A stretch of DNA of 62,815 nt from Clostridiaceae bacterium. Lineage in GTDB: Bacteria > Bacillota > Clostridia > Peptostreptococcales > Tindalliaceae. The position numbers were made by a program, and so were the translations under genes. Of this stretch, positions 24,291 to 61,043 are shown piece after piece. Under the pieces are notes generated by a model, which saw only the letters and a list, made by a program, of their open reading frames with translations, ran no database searches and was not told the DNA's origin. Each line of letters begins with the position of its first letter. Position 1 is the first letter of the stretch. The stretch spans positions 1 to 62,815 of the forward strand of contig JAABSW010000014.1 of assembly GCA_011390155.1 (NCBI GenBank). The letters run 5' to 3'.

Positions 24291-24387
24291 TGGCGGGAGT
24301 ACGTGGGAATCGAACCCACCCAAGAGGCTCCTAACCCCTCGTACTGGTTTTGAAGACCAGAGGATACACCAGCACCCATCTACTCCC
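24291..24387 (-). tRNA. selC: tRNA-Sec (anticodon UCA)
   Basis: 97 nt including an encoded CCA. The anticodon stem CTGGT/ACCAG encloses TCA, which reads UGA. The acceptor GGGAGTA pairs with TACTCCC, the discriminator is G, and a long variable arm (GAGG/CCTC) is present, as expected of selenocysteine tRNA. It lies directly downstream of selB and selA, so it may be on the same transcript. Confidence 0.96.
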
Positions 24388-53710: not shown

Positions 53711-54541
53711 TTACACAGCTGCCGGTGCTTCTTCTTCTTTCTTCAAACGTCCTTCAATTGCTTTCGTTGGGCATTTTTCAACACAGATATAACAATTGGT
53801 ACATTTGTCATAGTTGATAAATGCCAGGTTGTTTTCAAAGTCAATGGCTTGTTCGGGACATGCCTTCACACAAATTTGACATGCGATACAACCGACGCTG
53901 CATTTTTGTCTGACTACTTTGCCCGGGTCATTGCTGTTGCAGGTAATAACTACTTCCTGTTCATATGGCACCATGGTGATGACATTTTTCGGACAAGCTT
54001 CAACGCATTTTAGACATGCAGTGCATTTTTCAGGAATGATTTTTGCTAGACCTGTGTCCGTAATTTCGATGGCATCGAATGGACAAACGGTCACACAGGT
54101 TCCAAGTCCAAGACAGCCATATTTACATGATTTACTGCCACCATTCACCATATTAGCGGCAATGCAATCTTGGATGCCGTTATAAATAAATTTTTCTTTG
54201 CATTTATCAGATCCGCCATTACAAATCACTTTTGCTACTTTTTTAGCACTGCCTGCCACTTCAACTCCCATCACTTCTGCTAAGGCATCAGCAAGTTCTG
54301 GACCACCCACAGGACATCCATCTACAGGAGCTTCGCCTGCTGCAACTGCTCTGGCAAAGCTGTCGCATCCAGGCAGCCCGCACCCACCACAGTTAGCCCC
54401 CGGAAGCAAATCTCGTATGGTTGTAATTTTAGGGTCAACATCTACTTTAAACTTCTGTGCTGCAAAGGCCAGTCCTGCCCCAAACAAGAGTCCTAAACCA
54501 CCTAGACTGACAGCTGGGTATAAAATACCTTCAATGTTCAT
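53711..54541 (-). CDS. rnfB: ion-translocating ferredoxin:NAD oxidoreductase subunit B
   Basis: 276 residues. N-terminal membrane helix, a four-cysteine Fe-S domain (CGGCGLPGCDSF), and four ferredoxin-type CxxCxxCxxxCP runs (ending CVTVCP, CVEACP, CVKACP, CVEKCP). It is the ferredoxin-accepting subunit of Rnf, inner-face side. Confidence 0.95.
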   Translation of the reverse strand: MNIEGILYPAVSLGGLGLLFGAGLAFAAQKFKVDVDPKITTIRDLLPGANCGGCGLPGCDSFARAVAAGEAPVDGCPVGGPELADALAEVMGVEVAGSAKKVAKVICNGGSDKCKEKFIYNGIQDCIAANMVNGGSKSCKYGCLGLGTCVTVCPFDAIEITDTGLAKIIPEKCTACLKCVEACPKNVITMVPYEQEVVITCNSNDPGKVVRQKCSVGCIACQICVKACPEQAIDFENNLAFINYDKCTNCYICVEKCPTKAIEGRLKKEEEAPAAV

Positions 54542-54556
54542 TTATTTCACCCCTTT

Positions 54557-55138
54557 TTAAACCAGGCCCATGAAGCCCATAAAGGCCAAAGACATAAGAC
54601 CGGCTGTTAGTAGTGCAACAGGAAATCCCTTGAAAACAACAGGAAGATCTGCTAATTCCATACGCTCTCTTATAGCTGCAAACAACACGATGGCCAGGGA
54701 AAAACCGATGGCTGCACCGATGGCATGAAAAATCAGTTCAATTAAGTTGTATTCATTTTGAATGTTCAAGATGGTTAATCCAAGTACGGCACAGTTGGTG
54801 GTAATTAATGGCAAGTAAACACCCAGGGATTGATAAAGTGTATAACTCGTTTTCTGAATGACCATTTCAACCAGCTGAACCAGCGATGCAATAACAAGAA
54901 TAAAGACAATGGTCTGCATGTACTCAATGCCCAATGTATCAAGAATAAACCGTTGTGCCACGTAAGTAATAATTGATGCCATGGTCATTACAAATGTGAC
55001 AGCCATACCCATTCCCATAGCAGTTTCAACTTGCTTTGATACTCCCAGGAAAGGACAGACGCCAAGAAAACGTGATAAAACAAAGTTATTAACAAAGATT
55101 GCACTTATTAAAATAATAAAGATTGAAGAAATCGACAA
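54557..55138 (-). CDS. rnfA: Rnf complex subunit A
   Basis: 193 residues, six membrane helices. [16 protein letters not shown] (near 15-30) is the RnfA/NqrE hallmark, with a cysteine that helps form the intramembrane Fe-S site. The TTG at 55138 lies 8 bases after AAGGAGG; a GTG at 55147 touches that site. Confidence 0.94.
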
Positions 55139-55153
55139 CGTTGGCACCTCCTT

Positions 55154-55753
55154 CTAGGATTTGGATTTAGGATATACAGCCTTATTAAACAGCGCCATTA
55201 GAATTCCCAATGCGAGAAATGCTCCAGGAGCCATTGTCATAATGCTCATTGGTTCAAAAGCTGCAGGTAATAATTGTGCGCCGAAAACTGTTCCAAAACC
55301 AATGATTTCCCGCACGATCCCAAGAACCACCAAGGCTAATGTAAAACCAATGCCCATGCCTAAGCCGTCTGTAATGGACTGGATGACACCATTTTTAGAG
55401 GCAAAAGATTCAGCACGGCCTAAAATAATGCAGTTAACGACAATAAGAGGTATAAAAATACCTAAAGCCTTGTAAAGTTCAGGCGTGTACGCATTCATCA
55501 ACATTCCCACCATTGTGACAAAGGTTGCAATAACGACAATATAAACAGGAATTCGGATTTTTGTAGGTACTACTCGCCTGATAGCTGATACAACAAGATT
55601 GCTTCCAAACAAAACTGCCGTTGTCGCTACACCCATACCCAGGCCATTAATGGCAGTACTTGTCACTGCCAGTGTTGGACACATGCCCAGCACTTGTACA
55701 AAGATTGGATTATCGAGCACTAATCCTCTCGAAAATATTTTACCCAGTTTCAC
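55154..55753 (-). CDS. rnfE: Rnf complex subunit E
   Basis: 199 residues, six membrane helices, with the sister signature NPIFVQVLGMCPTLAVT near residue 16 containing its Fe-S cysteine. The GTG at 55753 has GGAGG 8 bases upstream. It pairs with RnfA in the membrane. Confidence 0.94.
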   Translation of the reverse strand: MKLGKIFSRGLVLDNPIFVQVLGMCPTLAVTSTAINGLGMGVATTAVLFGSNLVVSAIRRVVPTKIRIPVYIVVIATFVTMVGMLMNAYTPELYKALGIFIPLIVVNCIILGRAESFASKNGVIQSITDGLGMGIGFTLALVVLGIVREIIGFGTVFGAQLLPAAFEPMSIMTMAPGAFLALGILMALFNKAVYPKSKS

Positions 55754-55771
55754 AGTTTCCACCTCCGTTAA

Positions 55772-56302
55772 TTAATTTTTCAGGAAATCCTGGTATAAAG
55801 AAACGGCTGTATTAACACCGTTGACGACAGCGTCACTGGACACTGTGGCACCTGATATTGCGTCTACAGAAACATCTCCGTCAGCTGACAAACCGCTGAA
55901 TCGATCTGTGTAATCAGGTTCAGTAATTTTACTACCTAAACCAGGGGTTTCGGTTTGAGAGAGTATTTCTACACCTGAGATTTCATCGTTAGTAATCCCA
56001 ACCATCATTTCGATCTCTCCGCCATATCCGTTTGGAGCCAGTTTAATGGCATATCCAATCACAGTGTCTCCCTCTCTACCGGCAAAAACATCTCTAACCA
56101 TGGATACATTATCAATTTCTGCACCTTCAACAGGTTCAAAACTATCAGCTTCTCCCAGTAATTCTTCAAGAGAGGCCCGGTCGTTTTCCAAGGCGCGTTC
56201 CATTATGATGCCTTCTGTCATGCTGTTGGTAACGCCCAGAACCAATCCTGAAACCGCGGTAATGAGCAACAAAATGAGTCCCATCTTAACCATATCACGC
56301 AT
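55772..56302 (-). CDS. rnfG: Rnf complex subunit G (covalent FMN)
   Basis: 176 residues. N-terminal membrane helix, an extracytoplasmic FMN-binding domain with ETPGLGSK (118-125) and SGAT (150-153), whose threonine T153 carries phosphoester-linked FMN. Its start overlaps the rnfD stop by 8 bases. FMN attachment needs ApbE, which is not in the window. Confidence 0.95.
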   Translation of the reverse strand: MRDMVKMGLILLLITAVSGLVLGVTNSMTEGIIMERALENDRASLEELLGEADSFEPVEGAEIDNVSMVRDVFAGREGDTVIGYAIKLAPNGYGGEIEMMVGITNDEISGVEILSQTETPGLGSKITEPDYTDRFSGLSADGDVSVDAISGATVSSDAVVNGVNTAVSLYQDFLKN

Positions 56303-57248
56303 TTTGTTTTTTCACCTCCCCATAAATCGTTGGTACCGAGTATCTATCAATAAGAGGAGTAGCAACATTCATAAGTAAAATGGAAAAACCAACACCTTCA
56401 TTATAACCACCAAAGAGTCGGATTACTGCTGTGAGCAGACCACAACCTATAGCAAAAATAATTTTTCCTTTATCGGTGACAGGTGATGAAGAATAATCAG
56501 TGGCCATGAAAATCGCACCGATGAGCAAGCCGCCTGCCACTACATGGTAAGCCATAAAATGTACGTTAAATCCGCTGTAGACCAAGGTAATAAGGGCCAC
56601 CGTTCCCACATAAACTGCTGGGATGGTGATCTTGATAACCCCTCTGTAGAGAAGGTATAATCCACCCAACAATAGTAAGGCTGCAGAGGTTTCACCCATA
56701 CATCCACCGATATTACCGGCAAAGGTGTCAAATAAACCGGGTGCTGTGGCAGGAACAGCCATTTGACCTTTCACAAAGCTTAATGGTGTCGCAGTTGAAA
56801 TCATATCAGGTCCAGGGCTTACCCACTCAGTCATTCTTCCTGTCCAGGAAAGCGTTAAAAGGATTCGGGCAGCCAAAGCTGGGTTCATGAAATTTTTCCC
56901 CAAACCTCCAAATAATTGTTTCACAACAACGATGGCAAATGCTGAACCAATCATTGGAAGCCACCAAGGAGCTGCAGCCGTTATGTTTAAGGCAATTAGT
57001 AAACCGGTAACAACCGCACTCATATCTTTAATTGTCACTGGTTGTTTACGAACTTTTTGAACAGCTGCTTCTGCTAACACCGCAGTAATAACAGCAATTA
57101 AAATCAATACCAATGCGTTTGTTCTAAAAAAGTATACAGCACCGATGGTTGCGGGTAATAACGCAATCACAACATCGGACATAACTTTGGTAACACTGCC
57201 TTCATCCCTAATGTGTGGTGATGAAGAGACAATGAGTTTCTGTTCCAT
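56295..57248 (-). CDS. rnfD: Rnf complex subunit D (covalent FMN)
   Basis: 317 residues, eight to ten membrane helices. The STAT motif at 151-154 (before PLSF) fits the FMN-threonine site. It contributes to ion movement, sodium or protons, across the membrane. Confidence 0.95.
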   Translation of the reverse strand: MEQKLIVSSSPHIRDEGSVTKVMSDVVIALLPATIGAVYFFRTNALVLILIAVITAVLAEAAVQKVRKQPVTIKDMSAVVTGLLIALNITAAAPWWLPMIGSAFAIVVVKQLFGGLGKNFMNPALAARILLTLSWTGRMTEWVSPGPDMISTATPLSFVKGQMAVPATAPGLFDTFAGNIGGCMGETSAALLLLGGLYLLYRGVIKITIPAVYVGTVALITLVYSGFNVHFMAYHVVAGGLLIGAIFMATDYSSSPVTDKGKIIFAIGCGLLTAVIRLFGGYNEGVGFSILLMNVATPLIDRYSVPTIYGEVKKQNA

Positions 57249-58604: not shown

Positions 58605-59159
58605 TCACCCCTTATAATATTGATATAATTCCATTATTTCACCCTGCAACGATTTTCTGACCCATTCGATGACATCCGGATGATTCAGCGGGACATCCCC
58701 CAAAATTTGCCTGATTTCCCGTGTATCAAATATCATCTGTTGTTCATTGATCTTATGTGTGTATTGCAGGTTAAAATGACTGCCATCTATCAAAAGGGTT
58801 ACGATGGTTTCCACCATATTCCCTATTGGCACACGGTTAATGTGTGAATGTTGAAACCAAACTTCCACTTTCGTCCCAACATTTAATGATGATTCAATTT
58901 TTAAATCTCCCATACATTCAATAGCTGCCTGTTTTAACAAAGGCAGCCCCATGCCTACACGTCTTGTTGTTCTGGAGGTTGTAAAAGGATTAATTGCCTG
59001 TTTTACAAATTGTTCATCCATGCCACTTCCATCATCACTAATCGTAATGGTTAGCTTGTCGTCCATCATATTTTCATCAATAAAAATATGAATATTGGCA
59101 GCCTGTGCAACTATGGCATTTTGAACAATGTCCAATATATGTAATGATAATTCTTTCAC
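58605..59159 (-). CDS. HATPase-domain protein, GHKL family
   Basis: 184 residues. The N-box HILDIVQNAIVA (with N14), G1 DDGSGM (near 42-47) and G2 RRVGMGLPLL are present, so it can bind ATP, but there is no phosphoacceptor histidine domain. The C-terminal third is a separate unrecognised domain. The GTG start has a weak ribosome site. It is the last signalling gene before rnfC. Relatives stand near [FeFe]-hydrogenase operons. Confidence 0.82.
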   Translation of the reverse strand: MKELSLHILDIVQNAIVAQAANIHIFIDENMMDDKLTITISDDGSGMDEQFVKQAINPFTTSRTTRRVGMGLPLLKQAAIECMGDLKIESSLNVGTKVEVWFQHSHINRVPIGNMVETIVTLLIDGSHFNLQYTHKINEQQMIFDTREIRQILGDVPLNHPDVIEWVRKSLQGEIMELYQYYKG

Positions 59160-59182
59160 GTTATATCACTCATCTCTGTTAC

Positions 59183-59896
59183 TCAACTACTCAACCATGA
59201 TACCAGATTAGAGGTAGACTGATCAATTAAATCAATAAAAAAAACCCGTTCAAGGATATCTGCTAGATAGTGAGCGTCAGAACTGTAAATATGTTTAAAA
59301 AAAGCCAGTTCTTTTTTAATTTTTTCTGAGACTGCCATACTGTGTTTATCGTTTAGTTCAATGGTTTTTATGGGCAGCCCTTCTGGAAAATATCCCAGTT
59401 GGGAGTATACACTAAAACTGTCGCGCAACACATGAGCAGGCACAGGTGCTCCCTGGTATTGAATAATAAGGGCAACCAATCGGTCAAAAGATAGCTGTAT
59501 CGCATTCATCAACAGACGTTCATCTTCTCCAATCAGGTGATCGTTGGCATCAAAAATATGTTGTTGACCAAATATGTCAGGTCGGTTCTTTCTTTCTGGC
59601 AAATAAACTTTAATTTCATGATAAAACAAATCGAGTGCTTCATATGTAGGAAAATAGGCAAGCAGATGGGCTTCTTCCTGGGTAGTAATTTCAATACCAG
59701 GAACAATGACCAATGGCTTATTACTGGATGCTTTTATCGCAGGCAATACATTTTCAATGGCATTGTGATCGGTGATGGCAATCATATCCAGTTTTTTTAA
59801 CATTGCCATATTAATAATGTTGTTTGGTGTCATTTCATCATCTGCGCAAGGCGATAAGGCACTATGTATGTGTAAATCCACATATACTCTATTCAT
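59183..59896 (-). CDS. PHP-domain phosphoesterase
   Basis: 237 residues. HIH (9-11) in VDLHIHSALSPC, ITDHNAIE and a late SDAHYL form the PHP metal site. Members hydrolyse phosphate esters, including 5'-3' nucleic acids or histidinol-type phosphates; the substrate is unknown here. The ATG at 59896 overlaps the upstream DRTGG stop by 8 bases. Confidence 0.85.
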   Translation of the reverse strand: MNRVYVDLHIHSALSPCADDEMTPNNIINMAMLKKLDMIAITDHNAIENVLPAIKASSNKPLVIVPGIEITTQEEAHLLAYFPTYEALDLFYHEIKVYLPERKNRPDIFGQQHIFDANDHLIGEDERLLMNAIQLSFDRLVALIIQYQGAPVPAHVLRDSFSVYSQLGYFPEGLPIKTIELNDKHSMAVSEKIKKELAFFKHIYSSDAHYLADILERVFFIDLIDQSTSNLVSWLSS

Positions 59897-60227
59897 GTAT
59901 ATCAACACTTGCACACTTTATGGCTATATGGTATGCGCTTAGTGATGTTTGTAAAATAGGAATGCCCTCTTCCTCTGCTTTTTTCAATGTATCAGGGTCT
60001 ACTTCTGCGTCCTCCGCGATTATGATACAGCTTATATCAGTCATAACACCCACTGCAACCACGTTTATGTTGGTTTGTATGGTGATCCACGCCTGTCCTT
60101 CTTCAGCTTTTGCCATTACCCAGCTTAACATATCTCCAATATAGAATCCACTTATCTTTTTATTGAGGCCGTCTTTGCCTGACAGAAGCTTTACGTCAAG
60201 ATTGTTTAGAAGTTGGGCGACAGTCAT
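59889..60227 (-). CDS. DRTGG-domain protein (second)
   Basis: 112 residues, one DRTGG domain, a fold known from the N-terminal part of HPr kinase-like proteins and CBS-linked pyrophosphatases. A ligand-binding sensor role is plausible. AAGGAGG precedes the ATG. It overlaps the PHP gene. Confidence 0.82.
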   Translation of the reverse strand: MTVAQLLNNLDVKLLSGKDGLNKKISGFYIGDMLSWVMAKAEEGQAWITIQTNINVVAVGVMTDISCIIIAEDAEVDPDTLKKAEEEGIPILQTSLSAYHIAIKCASVDIHE

Positions 60228-60252
60228 GAAGCACCTCCTTATTGCACAACAC

Positions 60253-60678
60253 TTACATGGATTGTTTAAAGACTAGAATCAATTTTGTATGAGACTCATA
60301 CTCAGACTCAATGCTGAATTCATCTGAACACCGTTTGATATTTGGCAAACCCATTCCTGCACCAAAACCCAGCTCCCTGACGTTCTGAGGTGCTGTTGAA
60401 TAACCTTTTTTCATTGCCAATTCTATGTTTTTAATGCCTGGCCCCCGGTCACATGCCACTAACTTTATATATTCCGGTGTAATCATAAACTCTATTGTAC
60501 CGCCATAAGAATGTATGATAATGTTCATTTCTGTTTCGTAAGCAGCAACGGAAACCCTTCTAATAATTTCTGGTTTGACTCCTACCTGTTTCATGATTTT
60601 TTTGATGTTGCTGGATACTTCTCCAGCTTTTGTAAAATCATTTTTTCCCACCACATACGACCGTTGTATGGTAATCAC
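60253..60678 (-). CDS. anti-sigma-factor-like ATP-binding protein (RsbW/SpoIIAB type HATPase)
   Basis: 141 residues. N-box VAAYETEMNIIIHS, G1 DRGPGI, G2 GFGAGMGLPNI. Such proteins act as serine kinases of anti-anti-sigma partners. The start is uncertain: GTG at 60678 lacks a clear upstream ribosome site, and an internal start would lose only a few residues. It lies between the two DRTGG genes. Confidence 0.82.
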   Translation of the reverse strand: MITIQRSYVVGKNDFTKAGEVSSNIKKIMKQVGVKPEIIRRVSVAAYETEMNIIIHSYGGTIEFMITPEYIKLVACDRGPGIKNIELAMKKGYSTAPQNVRELGFGAGMGLPNIKRCSDEFSIESEYESHTKLILVFKQSM

Positions 60679-60689
60679 CCCAGCGATTA

Positions 60690-61043
60690 TTATCGTACGA
60701 TAACGGCTCCTCTAAGCCCTTTGTTATAAAGTATTCCTGAAGCAACAAACAGGATTGCATCAGTTTTCATCGTTACAATTCCATTTGCTTCAGCCATTTT
60801 AACAGTTTCCTCATCTGGTGATTTTCCACGGACAAAGACAATGGAATGAATGTCCATCATTTCAGCGGTTCTAACTGCATGTGTGTTGGTAAGGCCTGTT
60901 AGTAGGATTGTTTTGTCATCGAGTGATGAGAGAACATCGCTCATTAAGTCTGCTGCATAGGCATTGGATACTTCTCTTTCCAGGAAATCATGCCCTGACA
61001 ACACTTCTGCATTTAACAGCTCCTTAACTACGCTTAATTTCAT
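60690..61043 (-). CDS. DRTGG-domain protein (first)
   Basis: 117 residues, one DRTGG domain similar in length to the second copy at 59.9-60.2 kb, with which it shares the LLSG/LSGHD N-terminal turn. AGGAGG precedes the ATG. First gene of the run leading to rnf. Confidence 0.82.
   Translation of the reverse strand: MKLSVVKELLNAEVLSGHDFLEREVSNAYAADLMSDVLSSLDDKTILLTGLTNTHAVRTAEMMDIHSIVFVRGKSPDEETVKMAEANGIVTMKTDAILFVASGILYNKGLRGAVIVR

Follow-up and report, generated by a model that had tools for sequence, protein, structure and literature searches.

A DRTGG/ATPase/PHP gene module next to the Rnf operon: a candidate redox switch for enzymes that couple ferredoxin and NAD(H)

We analyzed a 62,815 nucleotide contig of a Clostridiaceae bacterium (JAABSW010000014.1, hereafter 'the window'), in which five small genes on the minus strand run directly into the operon of the Rnf complex, rnfCDGEAB. 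The five genes encode two single-domain DRTGG proteins (DRT1 and DRT2), two ATPases (HAT1 and HAT2) and a PHP-family hydrolase (PHP). We favor, with moderate confidence, the idea that they represent the cis-encoded part of a six-part and probably post-translational redox switch for enzymes coupling ferredoxin (Fd) to NAD(H). In this organism the partner of the switch would be Rnf, and the sixth part, an Fe-S protein that we call FeSs, would be supplied in trans. The idea builds on the parts themselves, their recurrence in other genomes, the co-occurrence of FeSs with them, gene fusions, conserved residues and the finding that neither HydF nor HydG scores above its cut-off in the source genome. 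The genes of the locus are as follows (aa, amino acids).

60690..61043, minus strand: DRT1, 117 aa, single-domain DRTGG protein; PF07085 at 25.4 bits against a cut-off of 25.2, a borderline match
60253..60678, minus strand: HAT1, 141 aa, GHKL ATPase resembling SpoIIAB/RsbW and, judged by its sequence, a possible Ser/Thr kinase; HATPase_c_2 at 37.2 bits
59889..60227, minus strand: DRT2, 112 aa, second single-domain DRTGG protein; PF07085 at 40 bits
59183..59914, minus strand: PHP, 243 aa from a GTG start, metal-dependent phosphoesterase fold; PF02811 at 33.7 bits, cut-off 26.4
58605..59159, minus strand: HAT2, 184 aa, stand-alone ATPase domain of the histidine kinase type plus a C-terminal part; HATPase_c at 58.6 bits
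57268..58596, minus strand: rnfC, at the head of the apparent target operon; TIGR01945 at 566.6 bits, cut-off 245.95
56295..57248, minus strand: rnfD; TIGR01946 at 317.1 bits, cut-off 207.05
55772..56302, minus strand: rnfG; TIGR01947 at 117.1 bits, cut-off 102
55154..55762, minus strand: rnfE; TIGR01948 at 267.5 bits, cut-off 213.4
54557..55147, minus strand: rnfA; TIGR01943 at 282.2 bits, cut-off 229.3
53711..54541, minus strand: rnfB; TIGR01944 at 133.4 bits, cut-off 68.7

Transcription of the module (61043-58605) proceeds in the order DRT1-HAT1-DRT2-PHP-HAT2 and then enters rnfCDGEAB. The gaps measure 11 bp (DRT1-HAT1), 25 bp (HAT1-DRT2), -26 bp (DRT2-PHP), 23 bp (PHP-HAT2) and 8 bp (HAT2-rnfC). 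The gap between DRT2 and PHP is -8 bp if PHP begins at the ATG at 59896, which is the more likely start than the GTG because homologues mostly align from about residue 7-13. An NlpC/P60 gene precedes DRT1 at a distance of 38 bp. The Rnf set is complete, with C, D, G, E, A and B each above its own TIGR cut-off. Coordinates and profile matches thus bear out the preliminary description of this DNA, which had reported five tightly spaced genes running into rnfCDGEAB.

We searched 60 genomes of the window's order, the source genome included, with PHP. A clear ortholog (at least 150 bits) was found in 33 genomes. In a 34th, G033, the locus is cut by a contig end beside HAT2-rnfC (L257; G, L and C numbers denote genomes, loci and contigs of the source genome, the latter being G000, a 97%-complete draft). 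At 22 of the 32 clear loci examined from other genomes, rnfCDGEAB lay directly downstream. The remaining loci had hydrogenase genes within 9.5 kb (4), bcd-etfB-etfA downstream (2), no partner and no HAT2 (3), or were cut (1). Counting the source genome and G033, rnf follows directly in 24 of the 34 order genomes that carry the module. The preliminary description had staked its case on recurrence beside rnf, and the neighborhood survey found it. In a wider sample of 199 genomes of the phylum, 70 had a PHP match; the 68 loci examined (own and G143, 75 bits, excluded) were linked to hydrogenase genes (40), to hydrogenase and rnf genes (13), to rnf only (3) or to none of them (12, several of which are truncated at the edge of a contig). 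Across the 157 loci of all surveys, partners within 9.5 kb of PHP were hydrogenase only in 68 cases, hydrogenase plus rnf in 16, rnf only in 26, bcd-etf in 2 and none in 45, and the association of the same gene set with bifurcating-hydrogenase genes was thereby confirmed as well.

In a FastTree phylogeny of PHP, which was flagged for long branches and letter make-up and used solely for counting label changes, accounting for the label 'rnf only' takes 9 changes, of which starred branches force 5 or more. Partner labels were assigned by similarity to reference open reading frames (ORFs), namely HydA, HydB, HydC and Fdx2 from L141, Bcd, EtfB and EtfA from L138, and the Rnf genes from the window. 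HydA alone among the L141 references is backed by a family search, and HydB relatives were scanned in L079 and L153. L034 and L114, which are the same locus of G001, were left out of conservation counts; L114, L255 and L257 were left out of the tree, L082 out of the PHP alignment because of a stop codon, and the weak PHP matches L092-L113 out of the surveys. Because the order recurs in many genomes, it is not due to chance. Chance or hitch-hiking gene order was ruled out by the 24 of 34 order genomes together with the distant repeats. The gene order is real, recurrent and tied to more than hydrogenase.

The partner genes themselves vary, all of them being linked to Fd or NAD(H). In Halanaerobacter jeridensis (L090), DRT1, HAT1, an Fe-S gene, DRT2, PHP and rnfCDGEAB are consecutive, and HAT2 was not recognised. 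At the loci linked to Bcd-EtfBA, EtfA carries a Fer4 domain, by domain scan in L138 and by similarity in L130. In L079 and L082, the module stands ahead of NuoE/NuoF-like genes followed by RnfD, RnfE and RnfA, and HydA, RnfC, RnfG and RnfB were not recognised in either of these hybrid sets. Both loci (L079:10743-16073, CALGNK010000045.1; L082, JACIXS010000419.1) lie on contigs of metagenome-assembled genomes, and their NuoEF-RnfDEA set is possibly an unusual NADH-linked ion pump. A reduced version, in which DRT2 and PHP are adjacent and no hydrogenase or rnf gene was recognised within 9.5 kb, occurs in Bacteroidales/Bacteroidetes contigs (L045, L046, L048-L051, L053, L055, L056, L058-L060, L062-L064, L067, L071, L076, L078, L081 and L091).

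Most hydrogenase-linked copies of the module, and, within the order, 6 of the 22 rnf-linked loci (another is truncated), carry a gene for the FeSs protein of about 420 aa between HAT1 and DRT2. The preliminary description had noted the lack of an Fe-S sensor gene. This is correct for the locus and does not hold for the genome: the FeSs ortholog of the source genome is encoded on another contig (C55:4436-5710, identical to L152:4436-5710), a few bases behind an NAD kinase gene. The expected Fe-S/SpoIIE-type partner likewise exists as an Fe-S protein, and its SpoIIE part was not found. The 7 copies scanned carry two Fer4 motifs, Fe_hyd_lg_C and a C-terminal FeS domain and gave no SpoIIE or PAS match. 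The three SpoIIE-profile matches of the source genome sit in other gene contexts, and an FeSs with a SpoIIE domain was rejected. FeSs has two N-terminal four-cysteine clusters, an H-domain and a C-terminal Cx2Cx4Cx16C motif, and no aligned row has a Cys at the position of CpI C299. The TamHydS type of group D (M2e) is defined, in the available part of PMC8163306, by two N-terminal clusters, an H-domain, the C-terminal Cx2Cx4Cx16C motif and the lack of both PAS and C299. By domain plan and motifs, FeSs is predicted to be a [FeFe]-hydrogenase-type protein of this group.

FeSs and PHP occur together. Among the 60 order genomes, 34 have both, none has PHP only, one has FeSs only (a 63%-complete genome) and 25 have neither. 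The corresponding numbers for the 199 phylum genomes are 66, 4, 3 and 126 at thresholds of E 1e-20 for PHP and E 1e-60 for FeSs, accepting G143 and, for G176, an FeSs match of 205 bits as they stand. The Fisher test of the phylum sample used 65/5/3/126, counting G176 as lacking FeSs, and Fisher values ignore the relatedness of the genomes. G006, a 96%-complete genome of the same family, has the arrangement yebC-nlpC-rnfCDGEAB, in which only a scrap of 40 codons similar to the C terminus of PHP precedes rnfC, and an FeSs ortholog was not found in this genome. The scrap and the missing FeSs are most simply explained by loss of the module together with FeSs while rnf was kept. Among 21 trans or orphan FeSs loci, an NAD kinase gene lies directly in front in 10 and an nqr-like operon behind in 6, neighbors that fit a pyridine-nucleotide/ferredoxin theme. 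The nqr-like operons (L258, L259, L260, L264, L266 and L273) include nqrB/rnfD, an FMN-binding subunit, nqrD, nqrE and an nqrF-like gene. The nqrF-like genes scanned in L258 and L264 score 261-270 bits, below the equivalog cut-off of 295. In L167, L168 and L169 (from G016, G045 and G038), a third DRTGG-type protein stands directly in front of the trans FeSs gene. It scores 132-139 bits with the DRT1 model, is below the Pfam DRTGG cut-off in the two cases scanned, and again pairs DRTGG with the Fe-S sensor.

We wondered whether FeSs of the window's lineage can sense H2. In 12 of the 34 module genomes, among them the 97%-complete source genome, neither HydF nor HydG reaches its cut-off; G002, G011, G019 and G047, all 99-100% complete, also belong to the 12. 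HydG matches of 219-227 bits, under the cut-off of 312, are present in G011, G019, G022 and G047, and G022 also has a HydF fragment. The four cubane cysteines of the FeSs H-domain are invariant. The equivalent of CpI K358 is Arg in 14 of 25 trans FeSs copies, that of the source genome among them, and Lys in 86 of 91 copies from module loci. Lack of HydF/HydG is associated with Arg at this position (9/2/5/18, p 0.002, with G001 left out and phylogeny ignored); rnf linkage shows no significant association with the K358R change (p 0.29). Module, FeSs and rnf are all retained in G011 (100% complete) and G022 (99%), two genomes that have no HydA above cut-off but show weaker Fe-hydrogenase-type matches. 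H2 sensing by the FeSs of the source genome is doubtful because HydF and HydG were not found and because Arg occupies the K358 position. These sequence features make it improbable that FeSs of the window's lineage works as a canonical H2 sensor. The protein is nevertheless kept, and the simplest view is that it senses ferredoxin or redox state in general.

The preliminary description had also stated that no hydrogenase is seen. None is encoded at the locus, but elsewhere the source genome has two HydA above cut-off, each with a NuoF-type neighbor. Both are of the group-A6 type (C35:27000-39623 and C1:62000-81000; L153 and L154). The hydB beside the C35 hydA is an ORF of 597 aa, and the NuoF-like gene on C1 is fused to a GltD-like NAD(P)-binding domain. 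With two HydA and neither HydF nor HydG above cut-off, either the draft misses the latter or the enzymes work without a canonical H-cluster. Rnf as the target is thus backed by adjacency and by relatives without HydA above cut-off, and not by absence of hydrogenase genes. Overall, the preliminary observation is confirmed, and its interpretation is partly supported and extended.

DRT1 reached 24.8 bits and under in a genome-wide DRTGG profile search. Its AlphaFold2 (AF2) model has a mean predicted confidence (pLDDT) of 91.1 and matches the DRTGG protein AF1212 (2ioj; Z 17.1, root-mean-square deviation 1.9, 113 residues aligned), followed by the CBS-DRTGG part of the clostridial pyrophosphatase 3l2b (Z 14.2) and the N domain of HPr kinase 1ko7 (Z 10.4); the MurE-N fold was also matched. 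In its predicted structure, DRT1 has the DRTGG fold despite its borderline profile score, and no STAS entry was among the 50 matches listed in the structure comparison. D32, S35, D36 and T49 are invariant in a 27-row alignment of DRT1, and D32, S35, T49 and N55 in 82 rows of DRT2. S35 and T49 are invariant in both proteins (58 rows for DRT1, 82 for DRT2). The other DRTGG protein of the source genome, a 554-aa frame on C30 that is presumably a pyrophosphatase, keeps the Asp only and differs at S35 and T49. Since both residues are common to DRT1 and DRT2 and absent from this protein, they are candidate phospho-acceptor or ligand residues.

HAT1 matches anti-sigma F SpoIIAB best in NCBIfam and fails the SpoIIAB/RsbW equivalog cut-offs (TIGR01925, 46.5 against 135 bits; NF003144, 19.3 against 145). 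All four chains matched among solved structures are anti-sigma F factors (1tid, E 0.003). E48, N52, D77, G79, G81 and GFGAGMGL are invariant in 54 rows, and we take these residues to be the ATP-site motifs of the GHKL kinase type. A profile scan of the 184 aa of HAT2 gave only HATPase_c-type matches above cut-off and no HisKA/DHp domain. In PHP, H15, H17, H50, E75, H83, H161, D213 and H215 are kept in 99-100% of 88 rows and presumably act as metal-site ligands. Cys23 near the HxH motif is kept in 88 of 88 rows, and Ser-Pro-Cys after HxH is almost invariant. The PHP model (pLDDT 95.7) is closest to EndoQ 5zb8 (Z 21.4), then to RNase AM (Z 16.2); AMP-bound 2yb1 is also near, and PHP tyrosine phosphatases score about Z 7.9. 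With the GHKL kinase-type residues of HAT1 and the His/Asp/Glu set of PHP preserved, the assignments proposed earlier, an ATP-binding kinase-type protein and a PHP hydrolase, are supported.

Gene fusions suggest that the module is wired by pairs. We found fusions of DRT1 to HAT1 in 4 loci (L200, L209, L219 and L224), of FeSs to DRT2 in 2 (L214 and L220) and of PHP to HAT2 in 4 (L195-L198), each of which may represent one event in one clade. HAT1 is fused to CBS domains in 8 further loci, beside DRT1/DRT2 (L044, L054, L079, L085, L189, L190, L244 and L253). At 6 of these 8 loci no FeSs was recognised, and 3 of the 4 CBS-HAT1 genomes of the phylum sample have no full FeSs ortholog anywhere (3/4 against 0/64, a comparison framed after the data were seen). 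Because CBS-HAT1 loci and genomes mostly lack FeSs, the input appears to be exchangeable between an Fe-S sensor and a sensor of the adenine-nucleotide type.

For the switch we infer a signal, a target, a direction, kinase activity, phosphorylation and an output. FeSs would read the redox state of the ferredoxin pool, and perhaps H2 in relatives able to build the H-cluster, and would pass the signal on through DRT2. HAT1 would act as a SpoIIAB-like Ser/Thr kinase with DRT1 as its partner and perhaps its substrate, Ser35 and Thr49 being the candidate acceptor or ligand residues. PHP and HAT2 would form a second pair that reverses or opposes HAT1/DRT1, with PHP acting as a metal-dependent phosphoesterase. 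The output would adjust how active the adjacent Rnf is, or how it is assembled, and would thereby match Fd:NAD+ electron flow to redox and energy state.

We also considered control at the level of transcription. The HAT2-rnfC junction spans -4 to 41 bp in the window's family, where co-transcription of the module with rnfC is plausible, and roughly 115-590 bp in other relatives of the order. Between 57000 and 62815 the window contains 17 promoter-like sites (shuffle mean 17.3) and 4 terminator-like sites (shuffle mean 4.2), no excess in either case. A palindrome with ACTGTATAC/GTATACAGT, which in our view resembles an operator for a GntR-type regulator, is present in the HAT2-rnfC gap of 9 of 21 rnf-linked order loci (L120, L124, L127, L128, L129, L132, L133, L134 and L137, with two places in L129 and L134). 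It was not found in this gap in four rnf-linked loci from outside the order (L090, L188, L189 and L244), nor in the window's family, and a search of the source genome returned 17 matches against 15 for the reversed control. A Rex operator in the gap was rejected, as matches were scattered, the best being 13/14 in L131, and formed no consistent pattern. Elsewhere in the window, a selenocysteine tRNA gene is encoded at 24295-24387 (Rfam tRNA-Sec, 73.4 bits).

Several observations weigh against an Rnf-directed redox switch. In families f3, f5 and f11, the palindrome in the gap points to a separate promoter for rnf, and control is therefore probably not exerted through co-transcription alone. RnfC is above cut-off in 57 of the 60 order genomes and HydA in 48, so neither predicts the module; with the module in only 34, it is at most an optional controller. 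The 45 of 157 loci at which none of the searched partner genes was seen, several of them cut by contig ends, count in the same direction. Lack of HydF/HydG is no mark of rnf linkage either, as it is found in 9 of 24 rnf-linked and 3 of 10 other module genomes; one of the latter is G039, where the module stands beside hydrogenase genes. Given its two HydA and its draft status, a trans target in the source genome is possible. Among the 10 window gene products scanned, there was no SpoIIE phosphatase, STAS protein or sigma factor. Finally, the label 'phosphoprotein phosphatase' for PHP is weak because the fold is nearer to nucleic-acid and nucleotide enzymes than to PHP tyrosine phosphatases.

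This last point leads to the rival idea of a nucleotide second-messenger circuit, in which PHP makes or destroys a nucleotide that is bound by the DRTGG (and CBS) domains, and these domains in turn set the activity of HAT1 and HAT2. The proximity of PHP to EndoQ, RNase AM and AMP-bound 2yb1, the joint occurrence of DRTGG and CBS domains in 3l2b/3l31 and the CBS-HAT1 fusions speak for such a circuit. However, a scan of window genes revealed no recognisable synthetase of this kind of nucleotide, and the circuit would presuppose nucleotide binding by DRT1 and DRT2; we regard it as unlikely. An anti-sigma partner switch, with HAT1 as anti-sigma kinase, a DRTGG protein as antagonist and rnf/hyd transcription as output, would explain why HAT1 is closest to SpoIIAB/RsbW and why DRT1-HAT1 fusions mimic a kinase-antagonist pair; an AraC-type gene adjoins TamHydS as well, according to the available part of PMC8163306. 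Yet HAT1 stays below the SpoIIAB equivalog cut-off, the DRT1 model matches DRTGG, HPrK-N and MurE-N folds, and the scanned window products gave no sigma, STAS or DNA-binding match save YebC, which makes this switch very unlikely.

Alternatively, the module could be an H2-sensing system for hydrogenases that acts in trans on HydABC, its adjacency to rnf being secondary. H2 sensing is the usual interpretation of the 'sensory' hydrogenases of group D. Hydrogenase is the commonest neighbor (68 + 16 of 157 loci), the source genome has two HydA above cut-off with NuoF-type neighbors, and TamHydS binds the H-cluster and reacts with H2, as stated in the available parts of PMC8163306 and PMC13104023. 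We nevertheless consider this improbable: module, FeSs and rnf are retained in G011 and G022, neither of which has a HydA above cut-off, HydF and HydG are below cut-off in 12 of 34 module genomes, and Arg replaces K358 in 14 of 25 trans FeSs rows. We give similarly little credence to a biogenesis function, in which GHKL ATPases, DRTGG scaffolds and PHP would help to assemble or repair flavin/Fe-S oxidoreductases, Rnf and HydABC among them. The module often lies beside multi-cofactor complexes of differing folds, FeSs could be a cluster carrier and six loci have FeSs beside an nqr-like operon, but G006 keeps rnfCDGEAB without the module, RnfC is above cut-off in 57 of 60 genomes and the module present in only 34, and CBS-HAT1 fusions favor nucleotide sensing over assembly.

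A redox switch of Fd/NAD(H)-coupling enzymes is the reading that we prefer. More tentatively, it might be extended to a plug-in controller of redox poise in anaerobes. Its conserved kinase/DRTGG/PHP/ATPase core could receive swappable inputs, either from an Fe-S protein of group D or from a kinase-fused CBS pair, and might have been wired repeatedly to the Fd/NAD(H) enzyme of a given lineage (HydABC, Rnf, Bcd-Etf or the NuoEF-RnfDEA hybrid). In the window's lineage the putative H2 sensor may have lost the ability to sense H2 and may now serve as a sensor of the ferredoxin pool together with Rnf.

FeSs shares with the TamHydS system the domain plan, the lack of a PAS match in the 7 copies scanned and the missing Cys at C299. 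According to the available part of PMC3561251, the genes of such Fe-S proteins usually precede those of bifurcating hydrogenases, and a histidine/serine kinase gene often separates the two. In contrast to TamHydS loci, the neighbor here is Rnf, FeSs is encoded in trans behind an NAD kinase gene, the K358 equivalent is Arg and neither HydF nor HydG was detected in the genome. The DRTGG pair, PHP and the second ATPase are absent from the accounts in the available parts of PMC8163306, PMC13104023 and PMC3561251. HAT1 has a GHKL ATP site with E..N and DxGxG motifs like SpoIIAB/RsbW. It differs from them in scoring below the SpoIIAB cut-off, in the lack of STAS and sigma matches among the scanned window products and in its candidate partner, a DRTGG protein. 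DRT1 resembles the DRTGG domains of CBS-pyrophosphatase and AF1212 in fold, and the CBS and DRTGG pairing reappears in the CBS-HAT1 fusions next to DRT1/DRT2; DRT1 and DRT2 differ in being single-domain proteins, with S35 and T49, which the other DRTGG protein of the source genome lacks. PHP has the fold and the conserved His/Asp/Glu set of EndoQ, RNase AM and 2yb1 and differs from them by the near-invariant Ser-Pro-Cys after HxH and a length of about 240 aa. In Clostridium ljungdahlii, RseC is needed for rnf expression in autotrophy (available part of PMC9124969). Its gene adjoins rnfC as the module does, but RseC belongs to the RseC_MucC family and the module proteins differ. No description of the whole module was found in the literature searched, which covered few subscription journals. 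DRTGG coincided there with Rnf and with hydrogenase in one and the same paper only, PMC10102598, where each is mentioned once. Hydrogenase loci had already shown the outline of a module with a group D sensor, and the Rnf-linked and apparently H2-independent form seems to be a new variant of it.

In many anaerobes the energy yield is determined by Rnf and bifurcating hydrogenases, and RseC was the only Rnf regulator encountered in the literature examined (PMC9124969, available part). The available part of a 2026 account calls the interaction partners of group D [FeFe] hydrogenase critical for clarifying its signaling (PMC13104023). The fusions and the co-occurrence reported here name candidate partners for these 'sensory' hydrogenases, DRT2 first, then HAT1/DRT1 and PHP/HAT2. 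Whether H2 is the signal at all could be judged from the Rnf-linked genomes that yielded neither HydF nor HydG, which amount to a natural experiment.

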